Below are positions 15,896 to 46,413 of a stretch of DNA of 64,000 nucleotides, piece by piece. A model generated the notes under the pieces. That model had not been told where the DNA came from. It saw only the letters and a list, made by a program, of their open reading frames with translations, and did no database searches. Within the stretch, counting starts at the first letter, position 1; the number at the start of each line of letters is the position of its first letter. Origin of the DNA: Paracoccus sp. M683 (GTDB taxonomy: Bacteria > Pseudomonadota > Alphaproteobacteria > Rhodobacterales > Rhodobacteraceae); the NCBI RefSeq assembly GCF_007096355.1, contig NZ_VKDF01000001.1, forward strand, positions 190,226 to 254,225, in the 5' to 3' direction. The position numbers and the translations under genes were made by a program.

Positions 15896-16754
15896 ATGGG
15901 TCGATGACATAGGCATCGTCGGGCGATGCCGTGGCTTCATATGGGTCGATGACGTAGGAATCATCCGGTGCCCCTTGTTGTCCAAGTTCATGGCGGCGGT
16001 TCATCAGGTAAAGCAGCCGCAGCTGTGTGTAACTATCCGCACTTTCATGCAGAACGCTATCGACAGTGTCCCCGAAACGCGCCCGCTCACCGGCTTTTGA
16101 GATCACCCGGATGGCCGTCGCGCCATGTCGCTGATCGCGGTTCAGCCAGTTGTCCAGCGGGTCGATCGCCATGTCCACGATACGTCCGACGGCGCGGCGG
16201 CTGGTCGATGGGCCCAGGACCGGCAGTTCCAGATAGGGGCCTTCGGCAAAGCCCCAGACATACAGGGTCTCGCCGAAATCGGTGTCGATCTCGGTCAGTG
16301 CGAACTCGGCGCCGGCGGGATCGTGAATGCCACCCAGCCCCAGGGTCGTATTGACAACAAAGCGCAGGCTGTTGCGCAGGGCAGGTTCCGGGCGGCCTTG
16401 CAGCAGCTGGTTCAGCACCTTGCCCGGCAGGGAAAGGTTTCCGCCGAAATTGGCCAGCGCATCCAGCGGGCCGGCAGGCGTGCCGGGCGCGGCCTGCTGG
16501 GCGGGGGCGGCCTGATCGTCGCGGCCGACCGCATTGGTCAAGGGACGGATCAGCCCCGCGTCCAGCCCCTTGTTGAAGGCATGGATGCGGCGATTGCCGG
16601 CCTCGAACGGGTCGTTGACGGCCTGCGGGTCGACCGGACCACGCGCGGCGCAGGCTGCAAGCAGCGGCAGGAACATCAGCGTGGCGATGGCCTTGTTAAG
16701 GCAAGGGCGTGTTCGCAATGTGATCCTGTCCTGGTTGTGCCGATGGCCCGTCAT
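15882..16754 (-). CDS. mlaA: MlaA (VacJ) family lipoprotein
   Basis: An outer-membrane lipoprotein that removes misplaced phospholipid from the outer leaflet and hands it to MlaC. The conserved block NDPFEAGNRRIHAFNKGLD lies just after the lipobox LAAC, and DIDTDFGETL-like and ELPVLGPSTSRR motifs follow. The C-terminus ends in two copies of PDD(S/A)YVIDPYE encoded by a 45-base DNA duplication, and the second copy overlaps the mlaC start. The start is uncertain: the ATG at 16754 gives a long charged leader, and a TTG at 16718 would give a better lipoprotein signal. Confidence 0.88.
   Translation of the reverse strand: MTGHRHNQDRITLRTRPCLNKAIATLMFLPLLAACAARGPVDPQAVNDPFEAGNRRIHAFNKGLDAGLIRPLTNAVGRDDQAAPAQQAAPGTPAGPLDALANFGGNLSLPGKVLNQLLQGRPEPALRNSLRFVVNTTLGLGGIHDPAGAEFALTEIDTDFGETLYVWGFAEGPYLELPVLGPSTSRRAVGRIVDMAIDPLDNWLNRDQRHGATAIRVISKAGERARFGDTVDSVLHESADSYTQLRLLYLMNRRHELGQQGAPDDSYVIDPYEATASPDDAYVIDPYEDQ
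15891..15958 (-). repeat. Two tandem 23-bp repeats at the mlaA-mlaC junction
   Basis: The 23-bp sequence starting TTCATATGGGTCGATGAC occurs at 15891-15913 and 15936-15958 with one mismatch. It encodes the duplicated YVIDPYE tail of MlaA. The first copy also contains the mlaC start codon. Confidence 0.85.
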
Positions 16755-16929
16755 CGCGCATATGATGCGCCTCGCCGGCGACATGGCCTGTCATAATGGC
16801 TTGCAGTCGAATAGAACTGTTCCATTGCCGGGGCAAGCTCGGCTATGGATGACCGGTGGATGCCCGCCGAATGGCGGCAAATCGGAACCGACGGGCCGCG
16901 CAGGCGGACACAACAAGACGGACGGCACT

Positions 16930-18678
16930 ATGGCAAGATCGCCCGACACGCAACGCGGCAAGGCCGAACTTCGATCGGCGCGGGCCGAAGGATGGCGGTT
17001 GTTCATCATCGTCGGGCTGTTCTCGGCCGTGGTCAACATCCTGATGCTAACCGGGCCGATGTTCATGCTTCAGGTCTATGACCGGGTGCTGGCCTCGCGT
17101 TCCTATGAAACGCTGACCGCGCTGTTCGTGCTGGTGATCTTCCTGTTTCTGCTGATGGGCCTGATCGACATCGCGCGCAACCGGGTGATGCATCGCGTCG
17201 CCGCCCGCTTTCAGAACCGGATGGAGCCGCGGGTCTTTACCGCCGCCCTGGCCGAAGGCGGCGCTGCCGGCAATGACCTGGTCACCCGTGGCGGAATGCG
17301 CGATCTGGAATCGGTGCATCGTTTCCTGTCCTCGCCCGTGGCGCTGGCCCTGTTCGACCTGCCCTGGGCGCCCCTGTTTCTGGCCGCCGTGTTCATCTTC
17401 CATCCGATGCTGGGCGTCGTGGCCACCATTGGCGGCGGCATTCTGGTCATCGCCACGCTGATGAACCAGTGGCTTAGCCGCGCGCCGCTGCAACAATCGG
17501 CCATCGCGTCGCAAAACGCCGAGAGGATGGGCGATCTCTATCGCGATGAAGGCGAGTTGATCGGATCGCTTGGCATGCGGGGCGCGGCCTTCGACCGCTG
17601 GCGCAAGGCGCGGGCCGAGGCGACCGAACATGCCATGCAGGGTGCCGACCGATCCTCGACCTTTTCGGTGTTCTCGCGGACGTTTCGGCTGTTTCTGCAA
17701 AGCGCGATGCTGGCCGCCGGTGCCTGGCTGGTGCTGCGCCAGCAACTGACGCCGGGTGCGATGATCGCCAGCTCGATCCTGATGGGACGCGCGCTGGCAC
17801 CCATTGATCAGGTGGTTGGCGGCTGGCCGGTGGTGCAGCGCGCGCAGGATGGCTGGACCCGCCTGACCGAACTGCTGTCGCGCCGCCCGCCGCAGCCCGA
17901 CCTGACCCCGCTGCCGCGTCCCAGGGCGCAACTGGATGTGCGCAACCTGTCGGTCGTGCCGCCCGGCCAGCAGCAACCGACGCTGCGCGGTGTCAGCTTT
18001 TCGCTGGCGCCGGGTCAGGCGCTTGGCGTCATCGGGGCCTCTGGTGCGGGCAAGACGACGCTGGCGCGGGCCATCATCGGCGCCTGGCCGGTGGCTGCCG
18101 GCTCGATCCGCATGGGCGGGGCGACGTTGGACCAGTATGATCCCGACGTGCTGGGCAATCTGATCGGCTATCTGCCGCAACAAGTGACCCTGTTCGATGG
18201 CACCATCGCCGAGAACATCGCCCGCATGAACCCCAAGGCCGACCCGCAGCGCGTCGTTGCGGCGGCCCAGGCAGCGGCGGCCCATCAGATGATTCTGGAT
18301 CTGCCCAAGGGCTATGACACGCCGATCAACCAGGCCGGCGGGCGCCTGTCGGGCGGCCAGATCCAGCGGATCGGCCTGGCCCGCGCATTGTATCCGCAGC
18401 CGGTTCTGTTCGTGCTGGACGAGCCGAACTCGAACCTGGACAACCAGGGGTCCGAGGCGCTGAACGTCGCGATCCGCAGCATCAAGGCCCGTGGCGGCGC
18501 AGTGCTGATCATGGCGCACAGACCCGCCGCGATCACCGAATGCGAATTGCTGCTGGTGCTGGATCAGGGCATGCGCCGGGCCTTTGGTCCGCGCGACGAG
18601 GTGCTGCAATCCATGGTCAAGAACGCCGATCAGATCCGCCAATCCCAGAACGCCGGCAAAAGCGGAGGCATCACATGA
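16930..18678 (+). CDS. Type I secretion ABC transporter (PrtD family)
   Basis: A 582-aa inner-membrane permease/ATPase. Six helices occupy about residues 20-310. The nucleotide-binding domain has Walker A GASGAGKTT, signature LSGGQIQRIGLARA, Walker B with DEPNSNLD, and H-loop His530 (IMAHRP). It has no N-terminal peptidase domain. The length and DEPNSNLD sequence are typical of PrtD-type exporters. It overlaps the next gene as ATGA, so a secretion pair is clear. No candidate substrate is adjacent, and the outer-membrane TolC partner is not in the window. Confidence 0.93.
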   Translation: MARSPDTQRGKAELRSARAEGWRLFIIVGLFSAVVNILMLTGPMFMLQVYDRVLASRSYETLTALFVLVIFLFLLMGLIDIARNRVMHRVAARFQNRMEPRVFTAALAEGGAAGNDLVTRGGMRDLESVHRFLSSPVALALFDLPWAPLFLAAVFIFHPMLGVVATIGGGILVIATLMNQWLSRAPLQQSAIASQNAERMGDLYRDEGELIGSLGMRGAAFDRWRKARAEATEHAMQGADRSSTFSVFSRTFRLFLQSAMLAAGAWLVLRQQLTPGAMIASSILMGRALAPIDQVVGGWPVVQRAQDGWTRLTELLSRRPPQPDLTPLPRPRAQLDVRNLSVVPPGQQQPTLRGVSFSLAPGQALGVIGASGAGKTTLARAIIGAWPVAAGSIRMGGATLDQYDPDVLGNLIGYLPQQVTLFDGTIAENIARMNPKADPQRVVAAAQAAAAHQMILDLPKGYDTPINQAGGRLSGGQIQRIGLARALYPQPVLFVLDEPNSNLDNQGSEALNVAIRSIKARGGAVLIMAHRPAAITECELLLVLDQGMRRAFGPRDEVLQSMVKNADQIRQSQNAGKSGGIT

Positions 18679-20126
18679 GCGATCAGGACCAGCCCAAGGG
18701 TCAGCCGCTGGCACGCATACAGCCGGTCAAGCAGGCCGTCATCGCCAGCGCCGGCCCGGCCGCGCCGGGCAGTGTCGACGCGCCGCCTCCGCCCCCTCCG
18801 CCGCCGGCCAAGGCACCCGACAAGGCCGAACTGGCCCGCCGCTGGCCGGTGCGGGGCGCCGTGTTCATGGGGCTTCTGGGTGTTTTCCTGCTGTTCGGCG
18901 GCTTTGGCGCATGGGCCATGTTCACCCGCATCGCCGGCGCCGTGGTGGCCCCCGGCCAGGTCGAGGTCGAGCAGCACCGCCAGATCGTCCAACATCCCGA
19001 TGGCGGCGTGATCGAGGAAATCCAGGTCAGCGAAGGCGACACGGTCGAGGCCGGGCAGACCCTGATCCGTCTTGATGGCACGTTGTTGCAAACCGAACTG
19101 GCCATCGTCGAGGGTCAGTATTTCGAAATCCTCGCCCGCCGTGGCCGGCTGGAGGCCGAGCGCGCCGATGCCGAGGCGGTTGATTTTTCGGCCGAATTGA
19201 CCGAGGCCGCCACTGCCGATCCCGAACTTGCGCAGATGATGGATGGCCAGCGCAGCCTGTTCGAGGCCCGCCGCGACACGATCCGCCAATCTCTGCAACA
19301 GCTGGACAAACAGTCCGAACAGGTGACGCAGCAGATATCGGGCATTGACGCGCAATCCGGTGCGCTGACTCAGCAGCGCGAGTTCATCCAGCAAGAATTG
19401 ACCGATCAGCGCTCGCTGCTGGAAAAGGGTCTGGCGCAGGCGCCGCGCGTTCTGGCGCTGGAACGCGAAGCGGCGCGACTGGATGGCCAGCTGGGTGAGA
19501 TGCAGGCCATGCGCGCACAGGCCGAGACGCGGCAGACCGAAATCGGCATCGAGCAGTTGCGACTGACGGCCGAGCGCCGCGAAGGCGCCGAGACAGAACT
19601 GCGCGACCTTGGCTATCGCCAGCTGGAACTGGCCGAACGCCGCCGCGCCCTGACCGAACAGATCAGCCGGCTGGACATCCGCGCCCCGGTGTCCGGCATT
19701 GTGCATCAGCTGCAATTCACCACACCACGCTCGGTCATCCGGCCGGCCGATCCGGTGTTGTATATCATCCCGCAGGATCGCCCGCTGATCATCGGCGCCC
19801 GCATCGCCACGATCAATGTCGACGAGGTCCGTCCCGGCCAACAGGTGATGCTGCGGTTTTCGTCCTTTTCCTCGCGCACGACGCCCGAGATCGACGGCCA
19901 GTTGCTGCGTGTCTCGGCCGATGCGCTGGTCGACGAGGCGACGCAGGTGCCCTATTACCGCGCCGAAGTCACGATCCTGCCGGACGAGCTGGCCAAGCTG
20001 GACGGATTGGCTCTTATCCCCGGCATGCCGGTCGAGGTTTACATCCAGACGGGCGAACGCAGCCCGATGACCTATCTGATGAAGCCGCTGACCGATTACT
20101 TCAATCGCGCCTTCCGCGAAAGCTAG
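18675..20126 (+). CDS. Type I secretion membrane-fusion protein (HlyD/PrtE family)
   Basis: A 483-aa periplasmic adaptor that links the ABC transporter to a TolC channel. It has a cytoplasmic tail with an eight-proline run (about residues 36-43), one membrane helix (about 60-80), a lipoyl half-domain with HRQIVQHPDGGVIEEI, a long coiled coil (about 160-330), the second lipoyl half, and a beta-barrel. Its C-terminus LTDYFNRAFRES is typical. The ATG overlaps the transporter stop by 4 bases. Confidence 0.93.
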   Translation: MSDQDQPKGQPLARIQPVKQAVIASAGPAAPGSVDAPPPPPPPPAKAPDKAELARRWPVRGAVFMGLLGVFLLFGGFGAWAMFTRIAGAVVAPGQVEVEQHRQIVQHPDGGVIEEIQVSEGDTVEAGQTLIRLDGTLLQTELAIVEGQYFEILARRGRLEAERADAEAVDFSAELTEAATADPELAQMMDGQRSLFEARRDTIRQSLQQLDKQSEQVTQQISGIDAQSGALTQQREFIQQELTDQRSLLEKGLAQAPRVLALEREAARLDGQLGEMQAMRAQAETRQTEIGIEQLRLTAERREGAETELRDLGYRQLELAERRRALTEQISRLDIRAPVSGIVHQLQFTTPRSVIRPADPVLYIIPQDRPLIIGARIATINVDEVRPGQQVMLRFSSFSSRTTPEIDGQLLRVSADALVDEATQVPYYRAEVTILPDELAKLDGLALIPGMPVEVYIQTGERSPMTYLMKPLTDYFNRAFRES

Positions 20127-38489: not shown

Positions 38490-39020
38490 TCATTCGACGG
38501 GATATGCGTGCAGCTGCAAAAATTTCCAGATGTCGCGGTTCAGCACTGACATCATCTCCAATTCCTGATCCAGCTGTGCAAGCTGATCGTCATCCAATTG
38601 CTGCTTGCGCCCCATGCGGATCCTGTCCCGCCGATCGGCAATTCGCATCAGAATGGTCGAAATCGACCCATCCTCCTGAAAAGACCAGATGCTGTGGTTA
38701 TAGCGGTGGCGCAACGCGGATAACCGGGAAAAGCGCGCCATCAGGTCCAGCAGCTGATGCTGCTTGTCATCCTGTGGCAGCAGCTGCTTTGCCAATCGCT
38801 CGACCAGTTCGATCCGGCCGCGGGTCGAATTGATCGACAGAAACACGATCACTGCCGCGTTGCTCTGCATGCCGGTCAGCCCCGAAAGCAGATGAACCAG
38901 CAGGCTTTCGGTATTGCTCCATGCATAGTTCAGCCGACCGACGCGCAGCAGTATCGCATCCAGACCGGGTTCCGGCGCCGGCGCAGCCGTTGGTGACGCG
39001 GATTGGTCGGTCACGGGCAC
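38490..39020 (-). CDS. HEPN-like small protein, function unknown
   Basis: A 176-aa mostly helical soluble protein. It has a WSNTESLLVHLL helix, a run of hydrophobic helices, and an Arg-x4-His motif in RHRYNHS followed by WSF, resembling the end of HEPN-type helical proteins. That likeness is an inference from one motif. The start is a GTG at 39020 that overlaps the LuxR stop by 10 bases, so the two are coupled. It is followed by no further gene on this strand. I do not recognise the family with certainty. Confidence 0.7.
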   Translation of the reverse strand: MPVTDQSASPTAAPAPEPGLDAILLRVGRLNYAWSNTESLLVHLLSGLTGMQSNAAVIVFLSINSTRGRIELVERLAKQLLPQDDKQHQLLDLMARFSRLSALRHRYNHSIWSFQEDGSISTILMRIADRRDRIRMGRKQQLDDDQLAQLDQELEMMSVLNRDIWKFLQLHAYPVE

Positions 39021-39703
39021 ATCGCCCGGTAATGCATCGCCGCCTCGGTCCGGTTGCGGGCGCCAAGCCGCAGGTTGGCATTGTGCAGATGCAGCTTGAC
39101 CGTATGGATCGACAGGCCAAGCACGGCCGCGATCCGCTTGTTCGACTGCCCGTCGGCGACCAGCCGCAAGACATCATGCTGCCGGGGTGTCAGGCCGCAA
39201 TCATCCACTGATTCGGTCGCCGGCGCGATCCGCCCGGCAGCGATCACCTCGGGGCAGATGTAGTTCCCGCCATGCGCCACCAGCTTGACGATGGACAGCC
39301 AGATATCCAACCGCACATTCAGCGGAAAGATGCTGGTCGCCCGCAGCCGGATGCGATCGTCAAGATAGCAGTCGACCGCGTAGCATTCGTTGCAGAAAGC
39401 CAAACCAAGCGTCACGTCGCCGAGGCCGAAAAGAAACTCCAGATCAGCCTCTGCCAGCCCGCGCATCATCGGCTCGTCCAGAATCGCGATTGCCGGGCGA
39501 GATTCTGCCTCGTCCACCGCTTTGCGAAAATCCTGGAATGAATGCATCACCGTCGATGTGATCTGTCCCAGTTCCTGACTGGTGGCAGCAATTAGGCTGC
39601 CCGAGAAATTGAACTGACTTCCCACAAAAACCACTTCGGCAAGTGCAGCAGCGCGATTGTCATATAAAGCAAGCGAATCACCGTCGAGGGGCATAACGGA
39701 CAT
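39011..39703 (-). CDS. LuxR-type transcriptional regulator
   Basis: A 230-aa regulator with a C-terminal LuxR/GerE helix-turn-helix (about 170-225): LTPRQHDVLRLVADGQSNKR and LGLSIHTVKLHLHN. The N-terminal 150 residues contain no receiver aspartate pattern that I can confirm and no autoinducer-binding signature, so the signal is unknown. ATG 39703 has an AGGGA site. It is divergent from the 665-aa low-complexity gene and probably controls the secretion locus, by analogy with other matrix operons. That control is inferred. Confidence 0.85.
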   Translation of the reverse strand: MSVMPLDGDSLALYDNRAAALAEVVFVGSQFNFSGSLIAATSQELGQITSTVMHSFQDFRKAVDEAESRPAIAILDEPMMRGLAEADLEFLFGLGDVTLGLAFCNECYAVDCYLDDRIRLRATSIFPLNVRLDIWLSIVKLVAHGGNYICPEVIAAGRIAPATESVDDCGLTPRQHDVLRLVADGQSNKRIAAVLGLSIHTVKLHLHNANLRLGARNRTEAAMHYRAMCP

Positions 39704-40273
39704 AATTGGTTTCCCTGCTGGCCAAGCTGCGGCAATGAAGAATCGGCAACCCAAAAACGCCGCGCTCAGATCATTCAAGTTTTATGTTTTATCTAACCAT
39801 ATCATGTCTTCGTATTATTTAAAGAAAAAAGGCATATTTTATTCTAATTCAGAAGATTTTTATTTGATTACATATCCTATCGACCTGGCTGACCTAGCCG
39901 AACGGGCTAACCCCAAAGGCCAGCGCCATATAGCCTCTGGGCCATGGCGGGATAACTTGGCGTGGCAGGTCGCCCCTGACCATTGATCCCGGCCTGCCTA
40001 GCCTCTTTGTGCGGCTATGCCCCGGCGGACCCGTTAACCTATTCTGTCAAGGTGCCGTTCAAGCGGGTTCTTCCGCTGGCAGCACGGCCGGACGCCGCAA
40101 GATGGGGCACGATGTCCGGTTTCAGCAGCAAGGCGATAACGGTCGTGCCGTTCTGACGGTGAGCATTTGCTCGGCGATCGAAGGCGGCTTGCTGGATCCC
40201 CATCGACAAACAGGGCGGGCAAGCGTGCTTGTGAATGATTGGCCGGACCCGCCCGGACAAGGGAGTAACGTAA
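39704..40273. other. 570-base intergenic region with an AT-rich island
   Basis: This is the longest gap in the window. From about 39775 to 39885 the sequence is very AT-rich, with runs such as TTTTATG, TATTTAAAGAAAAAAGG and TTTTTATTTG, unlike the surrounding GC-rich DNA. It lies between divergent starts, so it likely holds the promoters and operator of both units. The GGGAG ribosome site of the 665-aa gene is at about 40260-40265. No convincing gene was found here. Confidence 0.8.
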
Positions 40274-42271
40274 ATGGCTGACAATCGTAACATGAACCAA
40301 TTTGCCTTGCTGTCCGAGGTTGTCCCCGCCGACCCGGCGGATGACAGCCAGAGCCAGGGCCAGGGTCAGGATCAAGGCCAGGGTCAAGGCCAGGGTCAGG
40401 GCCAAGGTCAAGGCCAGGGTCAGGGTCAGGGTCAGGGGCAAGGCCAGGGTCAGCTTCAGGGCCAAGGCCAAGGTCAGGGCCAGGAACAGTATCAAAGCAA
40501 CGAGAACAGCAACGAGAACGGCAATTCGAACTCGAACAGCAGCAGCAGCGAGACGGCAGCATCCAATGCGGCGCAGAATACGGCCGCCAATGATGCATCG
40601 AACGCGGCTGCAAACGCGGCGGCCAATGCGGCCGACAACAACGCCTCGAATGATGCCGCCAATGACGCGGAAAACAATGCGTCGAATGATGCTGATAACA
40701 CGGCCTATAACAAGGCCGTCAACGAATCCTACAACAGCACCGATGTCGAAACCAACGTTGAAACCAATGTCAGCGTCGGCCTGGACCTTGATGGCTGGGA
40801 GCCATCGGACGACGACTTCGCGGATGTCGATCTGGACAATGCCGGCGGCACGATGGGCGATCTGCTGATCAACCGTGACGGCAACATGAACATTGGCACG
40901 CATGACATGGACTTCTCGGGCGTGCTGAACAAGTCGATGAACGGTGACGGCAACAATGCCTTTGTCATCGGTCAGTCGTCGAATCTGGATGACCAGGATA
41001 CGCTGGACAGCCCGACCGTCTCGAACAATGCAGCGTTCAACCAGAATGGCAGCGCCAACGGCGGCACGGCAACGGCGGAACGCGGCATCGACGCGGCCAA
41101 TGACGGCGGCAATGGCGGCGCGGCAGGCGATGCCAATGGCGGTGATGGCGATGCCCATGCCGATGGCGGCAAAGGTTATGCCGGTGGCAGCGATGCTACG
41201 GGCGGCGACGCCGGTGATGCCGATGCCGCAGGCGGTGACGGAACCGGTGGCGGTGCTCTGGGTCTTGGTGCTGGTGTCGGCCTCGGCGGTTCGGCCGATG
41301 GCGGTAATGCCGGTGGCCTTGCTGCCGGTGTCGGTGCAGGCCTCAGCGGCGATGCCGCAGGCGGCGATGCGGGTGCTGGCAGCCTGGCTGCGGCGCTTGG
41401 CCTTGGCGCGGGCGGCGGCACCGGCGATGCCGGTGACGGCGGCGCGGGCGGCAACAGCGGTGATGGCGGCGACACTGGCGATGGCGGCGACGGCGCTGCG
41501 GGCGGCGCTGGCGGCGCGACTGGACCGACCGGACCGACCGGACCGACCGGACCGGGCGGACCGGGCGGCACCGGCGGCCTCGGCCAGGGTGGCGATGGCG
41601 GCACCAGCGGCGACAGCGGCAACAGCGGCGACAGCGGCGATGGCGGCATGGGCGGCGATGGCGGCGATGGCAGCAACAGCGGCGATGGCGGCGGGACCGG
41701 CGATACCGGTGACGGCGCCGCGGGCGGCGATGGCGGCGACGGCGGCATGGGCGCAGGAATCGGCGCCGCATTGGCTGGCGCCGCAGCGAATGCCGGCGAC
41801 GGCACCTCGGGCGATGCGGGTGGCATCGGTCTGGGTCTTGTCGCGGCACTTGGTGGTGCAGGTGGTTCTGCCGATGGCGCAGGCGAAGGCAGCGGTGACG
41901 CAGCCGGCGGCGCCGGATATGGCGGCGCGACCGGTGCCACGACGGGGGGAGCCGGTGGTGCTGCCGGGTCGACTGGCGGGATCGCCTATGGTGGTGATGG
42001 TATCAACACCGACAGCGGGAACGGCGGTTCTGGCGGGCAGATCATGACCGGTGATGGCGGCTATGCCGATGCCGGCAGCTGGGGTTCGGGGAATGGCGAT
42101 GACGGTTACGTCACCGGCACATCGTCAGCCTCGGCTGATGCCCTGGTCGACACCACGGCGTTCAACCAGAACATCGTGATGGGCGCCAACATTCTGGGCA
42201 ATACGGTCGACATGACCGTGGTCGGCGGCGATCTCAGCTCGACGGTCGTGGGCGACGACGACCTCAGCTAG
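40274..42271 (+). CDS. 665-aa low-complexity protein, candidate type I secretion substrate
   Basis: No known function or signal peptide. The layout is as follows. Residues 1-24 are a short leader. Residues 26-74 have Gln at every second position (25 in a row) and 76-88 Asn at every second position. Residues 97-156 are fifteen X-Asn-X-Ala-like tetrads, 13 of them perfect. A folded-looking acidic segment follows (about 157-265), including [13 protein letters not shown] and AFNQN. Then comes a Gly/Asp/Ala body (about 266-620) with a collagen-like GPT patch at 417-434. The C-terminus repeats AFNQN and ends GDDDLS. Lack of a leader peptide, the acidic end and the neighbouring exporter suggest type I secretion. 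Codon use is repetitive, with hexameric DNA repeats. Confidence 0.88.
40349..40537 (+). repeat. Alternating X-Gln / X-Asn tract (period two)
   Basis: Codons 26-74 alternate a variable residue, mostly Gly, with Gln. Codons 76-88 do the same with Asn. At the DNA level it is a hexamer array of GGNCAR units that could slip during replication. If extended as a beta strand, all Gln/Asn side chains would lie on one face. Confidence 0.92.
40562..40741 (+). repeat. X-Asn-X-Ala tetrapeptide repeat
   Basis: Fifteen consecutive four-residue units (residues 97-156) start with [12 protein letters not shown]. The first thirteen keep Asn at position two and Ala at position four. The last two are VNES and YNST. 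Confidence 0.9.
41522..41575 (+). repeat. Collagen-like Gly-Pro-Thr patch
   Basis: Three GPT triplets are followed by GPG, GPG and GTG (residues 417-434), with near-identical nine-base DNA units. It is the only Pro-containing part of the Gly-rich body. It is too short for a stable triple helix by itself. Confidence 0.85.
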
Positions 42272-42285
42272 GCACAGCCGTGAAA

Positions 42286-42324
42286 TGATCCTGCGCGGGT
42301 TCGTCCCGCGCAGGATCACGTTTT
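42286..42324 (+). terminator. Strong hairpin terminator between the substrate gene and the exporter genes
   Basis: TGATCCTGCGCGGG and CCCGCGCAGGATCA form a perfect 14-bp stem with a five-base loop, followed by CGTTTT. It starts 15 bases after the 665-aa gene. It should stop most transcription before the 690-aa gene, so the secreted protein would be made in excess over its exporter, as with hlyA and hlyB in E. coli. Confidence 0.85.
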
Positions 42325-42379
42325 CCAATCGTCGCTCGGTTCCGCGGCCGAACGCACTTTAATTTCTAAGGTGGTTCAG

Positions 42380-44452
42380 ATGCTGACAATTCATGCCGCA
42401 GACGAGGCGATCTGGCATTTCATCGGGCTGTTTCAGCTGGCCGAAGAACAGGGCCGCATGCGGATCGAATATGACCGGATGGCCGCATTGAAGGCCGATG
42501 CAGATCCCGGCCAGATCGAGCCAGCCGACATTTCCACAGAAGCCCCGTTTGTCCTGGACGGCTATATCCCTCTGGTTCGCTATACGCCGCCGCCCGTCGC
42601 CAAAGACGGGCTGGCCACCGAGGCGGCCTATATCCGCAGCGGCCCCGATCTTGGGCTTCCCGCCCCTGCGGCGGCCAGCCAGCCGGTTTTGCCATACCTT
42701 GCCCCAACATCCCAATCATGGGCACCCGCGCCCCCACCGCACATGCCGGTGCCCGAGATCCCGATCATCAAGTGGATCCTGCCCCCGCCCGGCTCGGTCG
42801 CGGTGGTCATCGTGCAGCAGAATATCCTGATCGACGATGACAGCCTGAATGCCGAAGCCTTTGCCGGCCCGCTTGCCACACCCGAACAGATCATGGCCAA
42901 GCTGGATGGGATGCTGGCCCATGCAGATTTGCTGGCCGCAGGGCCGACGCTTTCGATACCGTCAGGCGAAGGCGCCTTTCTGGCGATGGCACAGGCGTTT
43001 CACCAGGCGGCCATATCGGGCACATTGATCGACCCGGCAGTCCATGAAATCGACGGCGCAGAAATCTTCACCCAGCAAGGCGATCAGGTCACCGGCAATT
43101 ATCTGAACGGCGTGCCGGTGATGGAACGCCCCGACATCGACGCCCTGCTGCCCGAGTTCCGCAAGGACAACGACGAGGACGAGGACGAGGACGAGGACAA
43201 CGACGAGGACGAAACCGCATCCGCCGGCACGGATCACGACGGGCCACAAACGGTCAGTGGCCAGACAGCCGAACAGGACGAGCCCGAGTCACAGCACGAA
43301 CTGGTCCTGGGCAACAACACCCTTGTCAACCAGTCCAACATCACCTCGGCCTGGATCACCGCGCCTGTCGTGGCGGTCGGTGCGGATGTCTACAGCTATA
43401 CCGTCATCAGCCAGACAAATATCTGGAGCGATGTCGACGCCGTGACGGGACAGGTCGCCGGTGGCTCGGCCGCGGGCGATGCAACGATCGGGCTGAATTA
43501 TTCAAGCTATGCCAGCTTCTCGAATCCGGTTCCCGAACGGCAGGGCGATGGCGAGGCACCCGAATACTGGGTGACCGCCACAATTGAAGGCAGCCTGATC
43601 AGCGTCAACTGGGTCGAGCAATATAACCTTGTATCGGACAACGAGGTCGTCTCGGTGACGATCCAGGCCGAGCAGACCTTTCTGATCATGGGCGAAAATG
43701 GCGCCGTGAACGAGGTCTCGCTGACCGAGCTTGGCCAGCAATATGACCTGATCATCATTGACGGCCATGTCATCAACCTCAATTCGGTGACGCAGACCAA
43801 TGTGATGCTGGATGATGATGGCATCATGATCAGCGGGCCGGACGGGGCCATGGTCAGTTCGGATGACAACCTGCTGATCAATGACTCGACCATCGTGCAG
43901 GTCGGCGCCTCGGGTTATCAGCCGGCCGACGGCGGCTATCAGGCCACGCTGGCTGCAACCGGTGCCGATGGCGAAATCACGCTGCCCCAGTCGGTGCTTG
44001 ACGATCCCGCATTCGCGGACCTGAACGCCATTCGCGTTCTGCATATCAAAGGTGATCTGGTCACGGTCAACATGGTCAAGCAGACCAATGTTCTTGCCGA
44101 TGCGGATCAGATCGAGGTCTATCTGGACCAGCTGAAGGCAAGCGCCGAGGGCACGATCCAGATCATCACCGGCTCGAACGTGCTGATCAACGCCTCGACC
44201 ATCACCGAATTTGGCGTCGACTCGATGGTCCATGTCGGGGGACAGGTCTATTCCGACGCCCTGCTGCTTCAGGCCGAACTGGTTTCGACCGATGCGCCTT
44301 TGATGCCCGATGGGGCATCGGCTTTGGCCAGCGAAGCCGTTTTGTTCCTGGCCGACGGAATGCTGAGTGAAGATGGCGATGACGCCCTGTTCCAGCCGAT
44401 CGGCATGGATGCTGCGGTGCCAGCCGATGCGATGGAAACGGTGCTTGCATGA
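42380..44452 (+). CDS. 690-aa repeat protein, candidate second substrate or accessory
   Basis: Function unknown, no signal peptide. The N-terminus (1-130) is Pro-rich towards its end. An acidic Asp/Glu run is at about 264-278. Five copies of a Gln-x-Asn-(I/V/L)-x-x-Asp motif occur, for example VIVQQNILIDDD, VISQTNIWSDVD, VTQTNVMLDDD and VKQTNVLADAD. Three Asn-rich units such as NLLINDSTIVQVG and NVLINASTITEFG alternate with them. The latter resemble [13 protein letters not shown] in the 665-aa protein, suggesting shared ancestry or assembly. ATG 42380 has an AAGGTGG site five bases upstream. The stop overlaps the exporter start by four bases. Confidence 0.88.
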   Translation: MLTIHAADEAIWHFIGLFQLAEEQGRMRIEYDRMAALKADADPGQIEPADISTEAPFVLDGYIPLVRYTPPPVAKDGLATEAAYIRSGPDLGLPAPAAASQPVLPYLAPTSQSWAPAPPPHMPVPEIPIIKWILPPPGSVAVVIVQQNILIDDDSLNAEAFAGPLATPEQIMAKLDGMLAHADLLAAGPTLSIPSGEGAFLAMAQAFHQAAISGTLIDPAVHEIDGAEIFTQQGDQVTGNYLNGVPVMERPDIDALLPEFRKDNDEDEDEDEDNDEDETASAGTDHDGPQTVSGQTAEQDEPESQHELVLGNNTLVNQSNITSAWITAPVVAVGADVYSYTVISQTNIWSDVDAVTGQVAGGSAAGDATIGLNYSSYASFSNPVPERQGDGEAPEYWVTATIEGSLISVNWVEQYNLVSDNEVVSVTIQAEQTFLIMGENGAVNEVSLTELGQQYDLIIIDGHVINLNSVTQTNVMLDDDGIMISGPDGAMVSSDDNLLINDSTIVQVGASGYQPADGGYQATLAATGADGEITLPQSVLDDPAFADLNAIRVLHIKGDLVTVNMVKQTNVLADADQIEVYLDQLKASAEGTIQIITGSNVLINASTITEFGVDSMVHVGGQVYSDALLLQAELVSTDAPLMPDGASALASEAVLFLADGMLSEDGDDALFQPIGMDAAVPADAMETVLA
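43169..43215 (+). repeat. Acidic Asp/Glu codon run
   Basis: Repeated GACGAG codons encode a run alternating Asp and Glu with two Asn, near residues 264-278 of the 690-aa protein. It may form a flexible linker or bind cations. Confidence 0.75.
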
Positions 44453-46413
44453 CAAAAGACAGCGCGAAGGAACATCTCCGGCTGGAGCAAGAGATGCGTG
44501 TCGACTGGCAGGAGAATGGCAAGAAGCCCAATCCGCCAAGTCCGAAACCCATGGGCACGGGCCCAACGATTGACCAGCAGGCGGGCCGCCTGCCGCCCGT
44601 TCCCGCGCAGGGCAAGGCCGGCGTTGGCAAAGCCTTTCACAAGCGGATTCGTGAACCCGACATCTCGGGCGCGCTTTCCGCCAGCCTCCGCCAGATCTGG
44701 ACCAATATTCTTGGCGTCGTGCTGTTCAGCGGCGTTGCCAACCTGCTGGTGCTGGCGATCCCGGTCTATCTGTTCCAGATCTCGGACCGGGTGCTGACCA
44801 GCCGGTCCACCGATACGCTGGTCATGCTGACGGTGGTGATCGTCGGCGCCGTGCTGTTGCAGGTGGTCTTTGACGCCCTGCGGCGGGGAATGCTGCTGCG
44901 CACCTCGGTCGATCTGTCGGCCCGGCTTGGCGCACCAATCCTGTCAGCCGCTGCCCGTGCGTCGCTGCAAAGCAATGGGCAGGAATATCAGACGCTTGGC
45001 GATTTGCAGCAGATCCGGGGCTTTCTGGTTTCGGGCACGCTGCTGGCCTTTCTGGACCTGCCTTTCGCGCCGCTGTTCATTCTGGCGATCTTTCTGGTCC
45101 ATCCGCATCTGGGACTGATCGTGATGTCAACGGCGCTGCTTTTGCTGGTGATCGCGATGATGAACCAGCGCGCCACCGCCGCATCCTTCGCCGAGGCGAA
45201 CCGGCATCTCAGCCGGTCGAACCTGCATCTGGATTCGATGGCCCGCAATTCGCAGATCATCAACGCATTGGCGATGATCCCCGAGGCGGTGACCATCTGG
45301 GGCCGAGACGCCGCCGGTTCGATGGCAGCACAGGTCCGCGCGCAGGATCGCAACATCTACTTCGCCGGCGCCTCTCGCGGGGTGCGGCTGCTGACGCAGG
45401 TGGGGCTGCTGGGCTGGGGTGCCTATCTGGCACTGAAGGGCGAGATCACCGGCGGCATGGTCATCGCCGCCTCGATCATCGCAGGCCGCGCGCTGGCCCC
45501 GATCGAAGGCGCCATCGAGGGCTGGAACAACGTCCTGCTGTCACGCGCGGCCTATGGGCGCATCTCGAAGCTGCTGAAATCCTCGCCGCTGAACACGCAG
45601 CGGCTGCATTTGCCCCATCCCGAGGGGCGGCTGGATGTCGAAAGGCTGCTTTATGTGCCGAACGGGACCAAGCGGGTGGTGCTGAACTCGATCACCTTTT
45701 CGCTGAACCCCGGCACCTCGATGGCCATCGTCGGCAAGTCGGGCGCGGGCAAGACCACGCTTGGCAAGATGCTGGTCGGGTCGATCCTGCCCACATCGGG
45801 CAGCGTGCGGCTGGACCTGATGGACCTGCGCAACTGGGATCAGCGGCAATTGGGCCAGTGCATCGGTTATCTGCCGCAGGACGTGCAGCTGTTCCCCGGC
45901 ACGATCAAGGACAACATCGCCCGGATGCGCGCCGATGCCAGTGATCAGGACATCTATCAGGCCGCCGTTCTGGCCGATGTACATGACATGATCGCCAAGC
46001 TGCCCGAGGGCTATGAAACCATCGTCGCCGCCGACGGATCGCCCCTGTCTGGCGGCCAGAAACAGCGCATCGGCCTGGCGAGGGCGTTTTTCGGCAACCC
46101 CCGCCTTGTGGTGCTGGACGAGCCGAACTCGAACCTGGACACGGCGGGCGATCAGGCGCTGTCGCGGGCGATGATGCTGGCCAAGCAGGACGGCATCACC
46201 ATGATCGTGGTGACCCAGAAATACTCGCTGTTGCAGGATGTGGACAACATCATGCTGCTGGCCGATGGCCAGATCGCGCTGTTCGGATCGCGCGACCAGA
46301 TGCTTGAGAAACTGGCGAAAGGCAGCCAGCCGCCGGCCCGAAGCCGGCCTCCGGTTGCGGCACCCGCAGCCCCGGCCGGGGCCGTGCCATCCGGCCCCGC
46401 CGCCCCCGCATAG
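44449..46413 (+). CDS. Type I secretion ABC transporter with an unusual H-loop
   Basis: A 654-aa PrtD-family exporter with a polar N-terminal tail (about 80 residues), six helices (about 85-370) and an ATPase domain. Walker A is GKSGAGKTT, the signature LSGGQKQRIGLARA, and Walker B ends in DEPNSNLD. The H-loop position reads VVTQKYSLL, so Gln590 replaces the usual histidine. The other exporter in this window has His530 there. The Ala/Pro-rich tail after residue 620 is extra. The gene overlaps the 690-aa gene at its start and precedes the membrane-fusion gene by 10 bases. Confidence 0.92.
   Translation: MTKDSAKEHLRLEQEMRVDWQENGKKPNPPSPKPMGTGPTIDQQAGRLPPVPAQGKAGVGKAFHKRIREPDISGALSASLRQIWTNILGVVLFSGVANLLVLAIPVYLFQISDRVLTSRSTDTLVMLTVVIVGAVLLQVVFDALRRGMLLRTSVDLSARLGAPILSAAARASLQSNGQEYQTLGDLQQIRGFLVSGTLLAFLDLPFAPLFILAIFLVHPHLGLIVMSTALLLLVIAMMNQRATAASFAEANRHLSRSNLHLDSMARNSQIINALAMIPEAVTIWGRDAAGSMAAQVRAQDRNIYFAGASRGVRLLTQVGLLGWGAYLALKGEITGGMVIAASIIAGRALAPIEGAIEGWNNVLLSRAAYGRISKLLKSSPLNTQRLHLPHPEGRLDVERLLYVPNGTKRVVLNSITFSLNPGTSMAIVGKSGAGKTTLGKMLVGSILPTSGSVRLDLMDLRNWDQRQLGQCIGYLPQDVQLFPGTIKDNIARMRADASDQDIYQAAVLADVHDMIAKLPEGYETIVAADGSPLSGGQKQRIGLARAFFGNPRLVVLDEPNSNLDTAGDQALSRAMMLAKQDGITMIVVTQKYSLLQDVDNIMLLADGQIALFGSRDQMLEKLAKGSQPPARSRPPVAAPAAPAGAVPSGPAAPA

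Follow-up and report, generated by a model that had tools for sequence, protein, structure and literature searches.

Gene organization of the locus

The window, a stretch of 64,000 nucleotides from Paracoccus sp. M683, contains a six-gene module in which a LuxR-type regulator and a 176-residue protein are divergent from a gene for an acidic repetitive protein, here termed GRP, which is followed in turn by its partner P693, a PrtD-type ABC transporter and an HlyD-type adaptor (Table 1). The ABC gene matches TIGR01842 with an E-value of 2.6e-207 and 689.7 bits, exceeding the cut-off of 510.15, and the regulator has known relatives only for its HTH part. Past the adaptor, the next open reading frames encode a DUF1491 protein and an Era-like GTPase, both on the opposite strand. 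Thus, of the components of a PrtD-kind type I locus, the ABC transporter and the HlyD-type adaptor are present in the cluster, and an outer-membrane channel gene is found neither there nor among the annotated neighbors of the module in three other copies (L215, L218 and L219). A second PrtD-type ABC gene occurs elsewhere in the window (16534-20126, plus strand; TIGR01842, E 3.4e-192) together with an HlyD-type gene (PF13437); no substrate-like gene was seen beside it, and similar ABC genes are present in genomes G092 and G023.

Table 1. Features of the module, in window coordinates
Feature	Position	Strand	Basis
176-aa protein without known family; adjacent to the regulator and co-conserved	38490..39020	-	
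LuxR-type regulator, divergent from GRP	39011..39778	-	PF00196, E 4.6e-16
GRP, 665 aa, pI 4.05	40274..42271	+	ORF
Gln ladder, residues 26-74 (25/25 second positions)	40349..40495	+	residue count
Asn ladder, residues 76-88 (7/7)	40499..40537	+	residue count
15 tetrads of the form x-Asn-x-x, most containing Ala; residues 97-156	40562..40741	+	residue count
Conserved Q..N..D.D unit of the acidic domain, residues 234-244; resembles P693 units	40973..41005	+	profile comparison
Gly-rich region, residues 266-600, 43% Gly; varies among relatives	41060..42073	+	
C-terminal unit, strongly conserved (GANxLGN, then VVGG); resembles P693 repeats	42158..42241	+	
Intergenic hairpin with a perfect stem of 14 bp and a loop of 5 nt	42286..42318	+	
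P693 partner, 690 aa counted from the ATG, with four GxNxxxN-like units and five QxN-like ones	42380..44452	+	
PrtD-type T1SS ABC transporter, overlaps P693 stop	44449..46413	+	TIGR01842
HlyD-type membrane fusion protein, 443 aa	46424..47755	+	PF13437, E 3.9e-16, over cut-off

GRP is acidic, with 89 Asp and Glu against 6 Lys and Arg residues. Its N-terminus shows no strongly hydrophobic stretch. No Pfam family was recovered for it up to an E-value of 1, and its four NCBIfam matches all fall far under their cut-offs. Its N-terminal repetitive segment is followed by an acidic domain that is conserved, then by the Gly-rich region and lastly by the C-terminus, which is strongly conserved. P693 likewise belongs to no Pfam or NCBIfam family, and a P693 profile compared with PDB sequences returned nothing up to E 1; a Pfam search with 18 P693 members retrieved just two families, each from one member (E 0.011 and 0.022). 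AlphaFold2 models based on six-sequence alignments were too poor to reveal any fold in either protein (mean pLDDT 36.3 for GRP and 29.8 for P693). A short acidic low-complexity tract of Asp and Glu in P693 (window 43164-43212) corresponds to a hexanucleotide array.

Phyletic distribution and conservation of the module

Homologues of P693 were found in 22 of 101 genomes of the genus, 34 of 394 in a family sample, 63 of 390 in an order sample (all from the window's own family) and 2 of 385 in a class sample, its own genome counted; these samples overlap, and altogether 100 genomes contained a match. A search of plasmids yielded 32 records, including those of Ensifer, Sinorhizobium, Shinella and Sulfitobacter, and the class sample therefore under-represents the Rhizobiaceae. 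The module is hence accessory in the genus, and ranges over Paracoccus, P. denitrificans included, and other Rhodobacterales, with relatives in the Rhizobiaceae. In Sulfitobacter indolifex (L218) it is plasmid-borne and situated near sugar-nucleotide and glycosyltransferase genes.

We examined 95 loci from these 100 genomes (the window, L032-L052, L106-L138 and L174-L213), leaving out G654 and four genomes with broken or partial P693 matches (G570, G582, G647 and G715); L053-L057 repeat contigs already counted and were excluded, and the loci from named records (L214-L219) enter no count. GRP was sought by motif; an hmmsearch with its C-terminus missed 13 of 33 family copies visible by eye. By motif, GRP lies immediately upstream of P693 in 94 of the 95 loci, across a gap of 34-182 nt. 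The remaining locus, L193, has two short tandem GRP-like ORFs with Gln ladders before P693, identified by eye, and a GRP or GRP-like ORF thus precedes P693 in all 95. Both tandem copies of L193 (2512-4506) retain the Gln ladder and the C-terminal unit with little Gly-rich region, and two tandem GRP copies also occur in L111 (2496-5823 in reverse-complement coordinates).

The rest of the module is comparably constant. Where at least 3.8 kb of sequence is available, both the ABC and adaptor genes are found downstream in 44 of 45 loci, the exception being L116, where there is no ABC gene within 5.5 kb; the ABC gene is also present in all 9 loci with 1.8-3.8 kb, and 41 further loci are too short to judge. 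A LuxR-type gene occurs in 87 of the 95 loci, and in 86 it is divergent from GRP and within 1.5 kb of it. The misses coincide with a contig end in L034 and with about 1 kb or less of upstream sequence in L048, L049, L051, L052, L136 and L198; that in L193 is a real one at the E-value threshold of 1e-10. A homologue of the 176-residue protein is present in all 81 loci with room for it, 73 of which pass a strict adjacency cut. The three annotated copies (L215, L218 and L219) have the six genes in identical order, with one extra small ORF in L218, and label both GRP and P693 as "hypothetical protein". We found no description of the module or the repeat among the papers listed in the literature searched, most subscription journals being outside its reach; on the basis of this search and these labels we treat the module as undescribed.

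The alternating N-terminal segment of GRP

The original prediction concerned a segment of 131 of the 665 residues of GRP, a fifth of the protein lying in its N-terminal quarter, and described a ladder of alternating Gln and then Asn residues succeeded by Asn-containing tetrads. The description is accurate: codons 26 to 156 span 40349-40741, every even position holds Gln from 26 to 74 and Asn from 76 to 88 (32 in total), and Asn recurs at a spacing of four in all 15 tetrads (98, 102 and so on to 154). Ala precedes the Asn by two residues in 14 of the 15 tetrads, and follows it at the same distance in 13. The highest alternation score for a 24-residue window is 1.00, against a maximum of 0.67 in 200 shuffles of the N-terminal segment, and the run of 15 Asn tetrads compares with a maximum of 6 in 200 shuffles. 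The Gln codons of the ladder comprise 17 CAG and 8 CAA, its Gly codons 9 GGC, 9 GGT and 1 GGG, and its 24 units 10 different hexamers. This mixture of codons shows that no perfect DNA repeat of recent origin underlies the ladder. Of the two structures proposed for the tetrads, a helix or a different repeat fold, the former gains a little from the fact that the only helix of the poor GRP model spans residues 92-154 (pLDDT about 50-60 over its first half). The Gly-rich region, the strongly conserved C-terminus and the start of a conserved gene cluster lay beyond that prediction.

To survey relatives, a ladder was defined as a 24-residue window with an alternation score of at least 0.75. The survey covers 94 GRPs, with L111 represented by its two copies and the contig-cut GRP of L034 and the ORFs of L193 excluded. 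Of these, 86 have a two-residue ladder, with none of 200 shuffles scoring as high in 85 of them; one shuffle reaches the score of L137, and none that of L199, which is under the cut. Considering any window, 79 of the 94 have an amide ladder, formed by Gln and Asn in 34, by Gln only in 40 and by Asn only in 5. In seven others (L048, L049, L051, L052, L134, L137 and L206) the ladder is exclusively non-amide, with Asp-Ala, Ser-Asp, Asp-Gln or Gly-Ala alternating, and in L106 and L125 Ser-Glu and Thr ladders stand alongside a weaker amide ladder. The ladder is absent from the remaining eight (L108, L121, L136, L194, L195, L196, L199 and L205), and in L194, L195 and L196 its place at the GRP N-terminus is taken by a TNGGNDSN-type octapeptide repeat together with a run of Gln. 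Across 77 amide windows, one residue occupies 98% of the ladder positions as opposed to 53% of the partner positions, a contrast inflated by selecting windows on the ladder position; the partner is Gly at 438 and Asp at 221 of 924 positions. Mapping on a P693 tree (a quick one with some long branches) calls for a minimum of 4 gains or losses of the non-amide state and of 5 for the ladderless state, which shows hardly any clustering (17 of 500 shuffles give as low a number).

Runs of at least five Asn tetrads are less widespread than the ladder, being detected in 23 of the 94 GRPs. They occur in 18 of the 23 Paracoccus GRPs, and the coexistence of two exact periodicities in one protein, earlier deemed unusual, is instead a habit of this group. 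Homologues that keep the flanks and lack any alternating tract had been named as evidence against an assembly role for the segment. They do exist, though they are few: the eight ladderless GRPs and a Sinorhizobium copy (L217, 6269-6868), in which the place of GRP is taken by an ORF of at most 200 residues with both conserved units, recognized by eye, and no ladder or Gly-rich region. The ladder is therefore dispensable somewhere, and the Sinorhizobium ORF suggests that the two units are what stays constant in GRP. The lengths of the other parts vary, from 87 to 268 residues (median 122.5) for the segment ahead of the conserved domain and from 38 to 1330 residues for the Gly-rich part.

A hairpin between GRP and P693

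The intergenic stretch with the hairpin (42262-42379) folds at a z-score of -5.6. Among the 94 GRP-P693 gaps (L034 in, L193 out), 72 contain a perfect stem of at least 7 bp, and the median stem is 10 bp against 4.6 in shuffles; the hairpin sequences themselves differ between relatives. At least four T residues within 8 bases after the stem are seen in only 26 of the 94 gaps, and because so few stems precede T runs, partial termination and RNA stabilization are both possible. The hairpin and the P693/ABC overlap would fit the production of much GRP and less P693.

Motifs shared by GRP and P693

In the window's P693, numbered as the 693-residue ORF, GxNxxxN-like units lie at 314, 441, 498 and 601, and QxN-like units at 149, 348, 417, 475 and 571. 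In a profile comparison, residues 426-466 of P693 align with the GRP C-terminus at an E-value of 2e-4 and a probability of 46%, and the acidic domain matches the P693 profile with a probability of 16%. Against 32 of the 94 P693 rows, the C-terminus scores 31.7 (probability 57%), compared to 16.9 when reversed and a maximum of 19.9 in column shuffles, none of 100 reaching 31.7; the acidic domain scores 30.1, compared to 20.1 when reversed and a column-shuffle maximum of 19.2. With four-column block shuffles, one of 100 exceeds the observed score for each of the two regions; on inspection, the outlier for the C-terminus is a 5-column end artefact. In a plain motif search with the GRP C-terminus, 2 of the 95 P693s fall below E 0.01, as against no sequence of the shuffled or reversed sets. 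The two proteins thus appear to share two short motifs, with a modest likeness that is better than chance and falls short of proving common descent.

Comparison with known secretion and assembly systems

Several known systems share features with the module. 1) In curli, a LuxR-family regulator is divergent from related major and minor structural proteins. The GRP/P693 pair with its divergent LuxR-type gene, in 86 of the 95 loci, recalls this arrangement; unlike in curli, the exporter is of type I and not CsgG. Pfam detected no curlin repeats in GRP, P693 or 17 further P693 members. 2) RTX-type substrates of type I systems are likewise Gly- and Asp-rich and encoded beside PrtD/HlyD-type genes. 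They differ from the present case, where there are two substrate-like genes without known family; the GGxGxDxUx nonapeptide is missing from 76 of the 94 GRPs, and occurs once in 15 and twice in 3. 3) The acidic adhesin BapA of P. denitrificans, with 891 Asp-Ala repeats, is linked to bapBCD and needed for attachment (PMC5588039, PMC13235738). It resembles GRP in its huge two-residue repeat, acidity, adjacency to a type I exporter and genus, and its locus includes an outer-membrane gene, bapD, which the GRP module lacks. A P. denitrificans contig other than that with the GRP module (C26, L139) opens within an Asp-Ala repeat, downstream of which lie exporter-like genes; by likeness, this gene end is probably bapA. 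Searched against 94 GRPs and 95 P693s, its 316-residue tail had no match by phmmer, and blastp gave none below E 2.8. We accordingly rejected the identity of GRP with bapA, given the separate locus and a tail without likeness to GRP or P693. Short Asp-Ala tracts are nevertheless present in the GRPs of L049 and L052, together with GRP C-terminal ends. 4) The Ser-Asp repeat of staphylococcal ClfB is described as a flexible stalk presenting a binding domain (PMC5717387). ClfB shares an alternating dipeptide tract with GRP and differs in being a wall-anchored Gram-positive protein, whose stalk follows the binding domain, whereas the GRP ladder comes first.

Functional interpretation and alternatives

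The exporter genes, the absence of a strongly hydrophobic N-terminus and the constant pairing make type I export likely for GRP, and probably for P693. An assembly or surface role is plausible in view of the neighboring exporter genes and the motifs shared with P693. The explanation that we favor, at about an even chance of being correct, is that GRP and P693 are two surface or matrix proteins secreted by the dedicated PrtD/HlyD exporter under the control of the LuxR-type regulator, with GRP as the bulk, stalked component made in excess. The C-terminal unit of GRP and the QxN unit ahead of its Gly-rich region, which resemble P693 repeats, would act as docking parts, and the Gly-rich region as a variable spacer or brush. 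The N-terminal ladder would form an extended, hydrophilic, non-folding stalk; we read it so since period two and hydrophilicity are kept as the residue changes, and the partner is often Gly or Asp. Type I systems typically export their substrates C-terminus first; if this holds for GRP, the ladder would be its last part through the exporter. Counted against this explanation are the missing channel gene, the modest profile probabilities, the accessory distribution, the L116 locus without an ABC gene, the two hits among 95 in the plain motif search, the block-shuffle outliers, the poor models, the ladderless GRPs and the scarcity of T runs.

A more specific form, which we hold to be unlikely, makes GRP a split solenoid: its QxN and GANxLGN units, behind a period-two stalk, would flank a Gly-rich brush and co-polymerize with the tandem units of P693 into a type I-exported extracellular fiber. 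If true, this would be a curli-like strategy on an unrelated exporter, and selection on the stalk would act on its two-residue periodicity, not on residue identity.

It also seems improbable that the module makes a functional amyloid, in which the Gln/Asn ladder would build curli-like cross-β matrix fibers with P693 as nucleator. The amide ladders of 79 of the 94 GRPs, the regulator divergent from the structural gene, the Q-x-N units of P693 and the placement of amides on one face that a period of two would allow all speak for it. The β-ladder of the original prediction, with all amides on one face, is weakened by the seven GRPs that alternate only other residues and the eight that alternate none, by the frequency of Gly and Asp as partners and by the lack of a curlin family; because the residues switch, we discarded amyloid argued from composition alone as the principal reading. 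As the period and hydrophilicity outlast residue identity, a stretched tether accounts for the ladder better than an amyloid core specific to Gln/Asn does.

We consider a neutral origin very unlikely, in which hexanucleotide slippage within a disordered region would have left the ladder as a functionless by-product. Hexamer repeats readily expand, the ladder is missing from some homologues and the Gly-rich part is variable too; set against this are the homogeneity of the ladder position relative to its partner (inflated by window choice, as above), the mixed synonymous codons and the persistence of alternation through changes of residue. Equally doubtful is a role as an acidic matrix protein, rich in Asp and Gly, that binds ions such as Ca2+ or nucleates mineral, with ladder and Gly-rich region as ion-binding brushes. 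The charge of GRP favors it, and calcium is reported to stimulate P. denitrificans attachment, with BapA predicted to bind it (PMC5588039); the general lack of the RTX nonapeptide and the uncharged nature of a Gln-Gly ladder argue to the contrary. Finally, P693 could be a cytoplasmic chaperone rather than a secreted partner.

If the favored reading of GRP and P693 as exported surface or matrix proteins is true, it would add a conserved, unnamed six-gene secretion module to the Rhodobacterales and Rhizobiaceae. The module extends to the model denitrifier P. denitrificans, for which TXSScan reported a single type I system, and the sections of that paper covered here do not mention it (PMC5588039). 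A highly repetitive GRP beside its own exporter genes suggests secreted material of a new kind, serving as a coat or for attachment. Ladders that switch between Gln-Gly, Asn-Gly, Asp-Ala, Ser-Asp and Ser-Glu at a constant period of two further offer a natural test of how selection acts on the dipeptide tracts of surface proteins. Elsewhere in the genome from which the window comes, contig 45 (L002, 648-1724) carries an ORF with a long alternating Pro-Glu tract and weak DNA similarity to the ladder, which looks like an unrelated gene.
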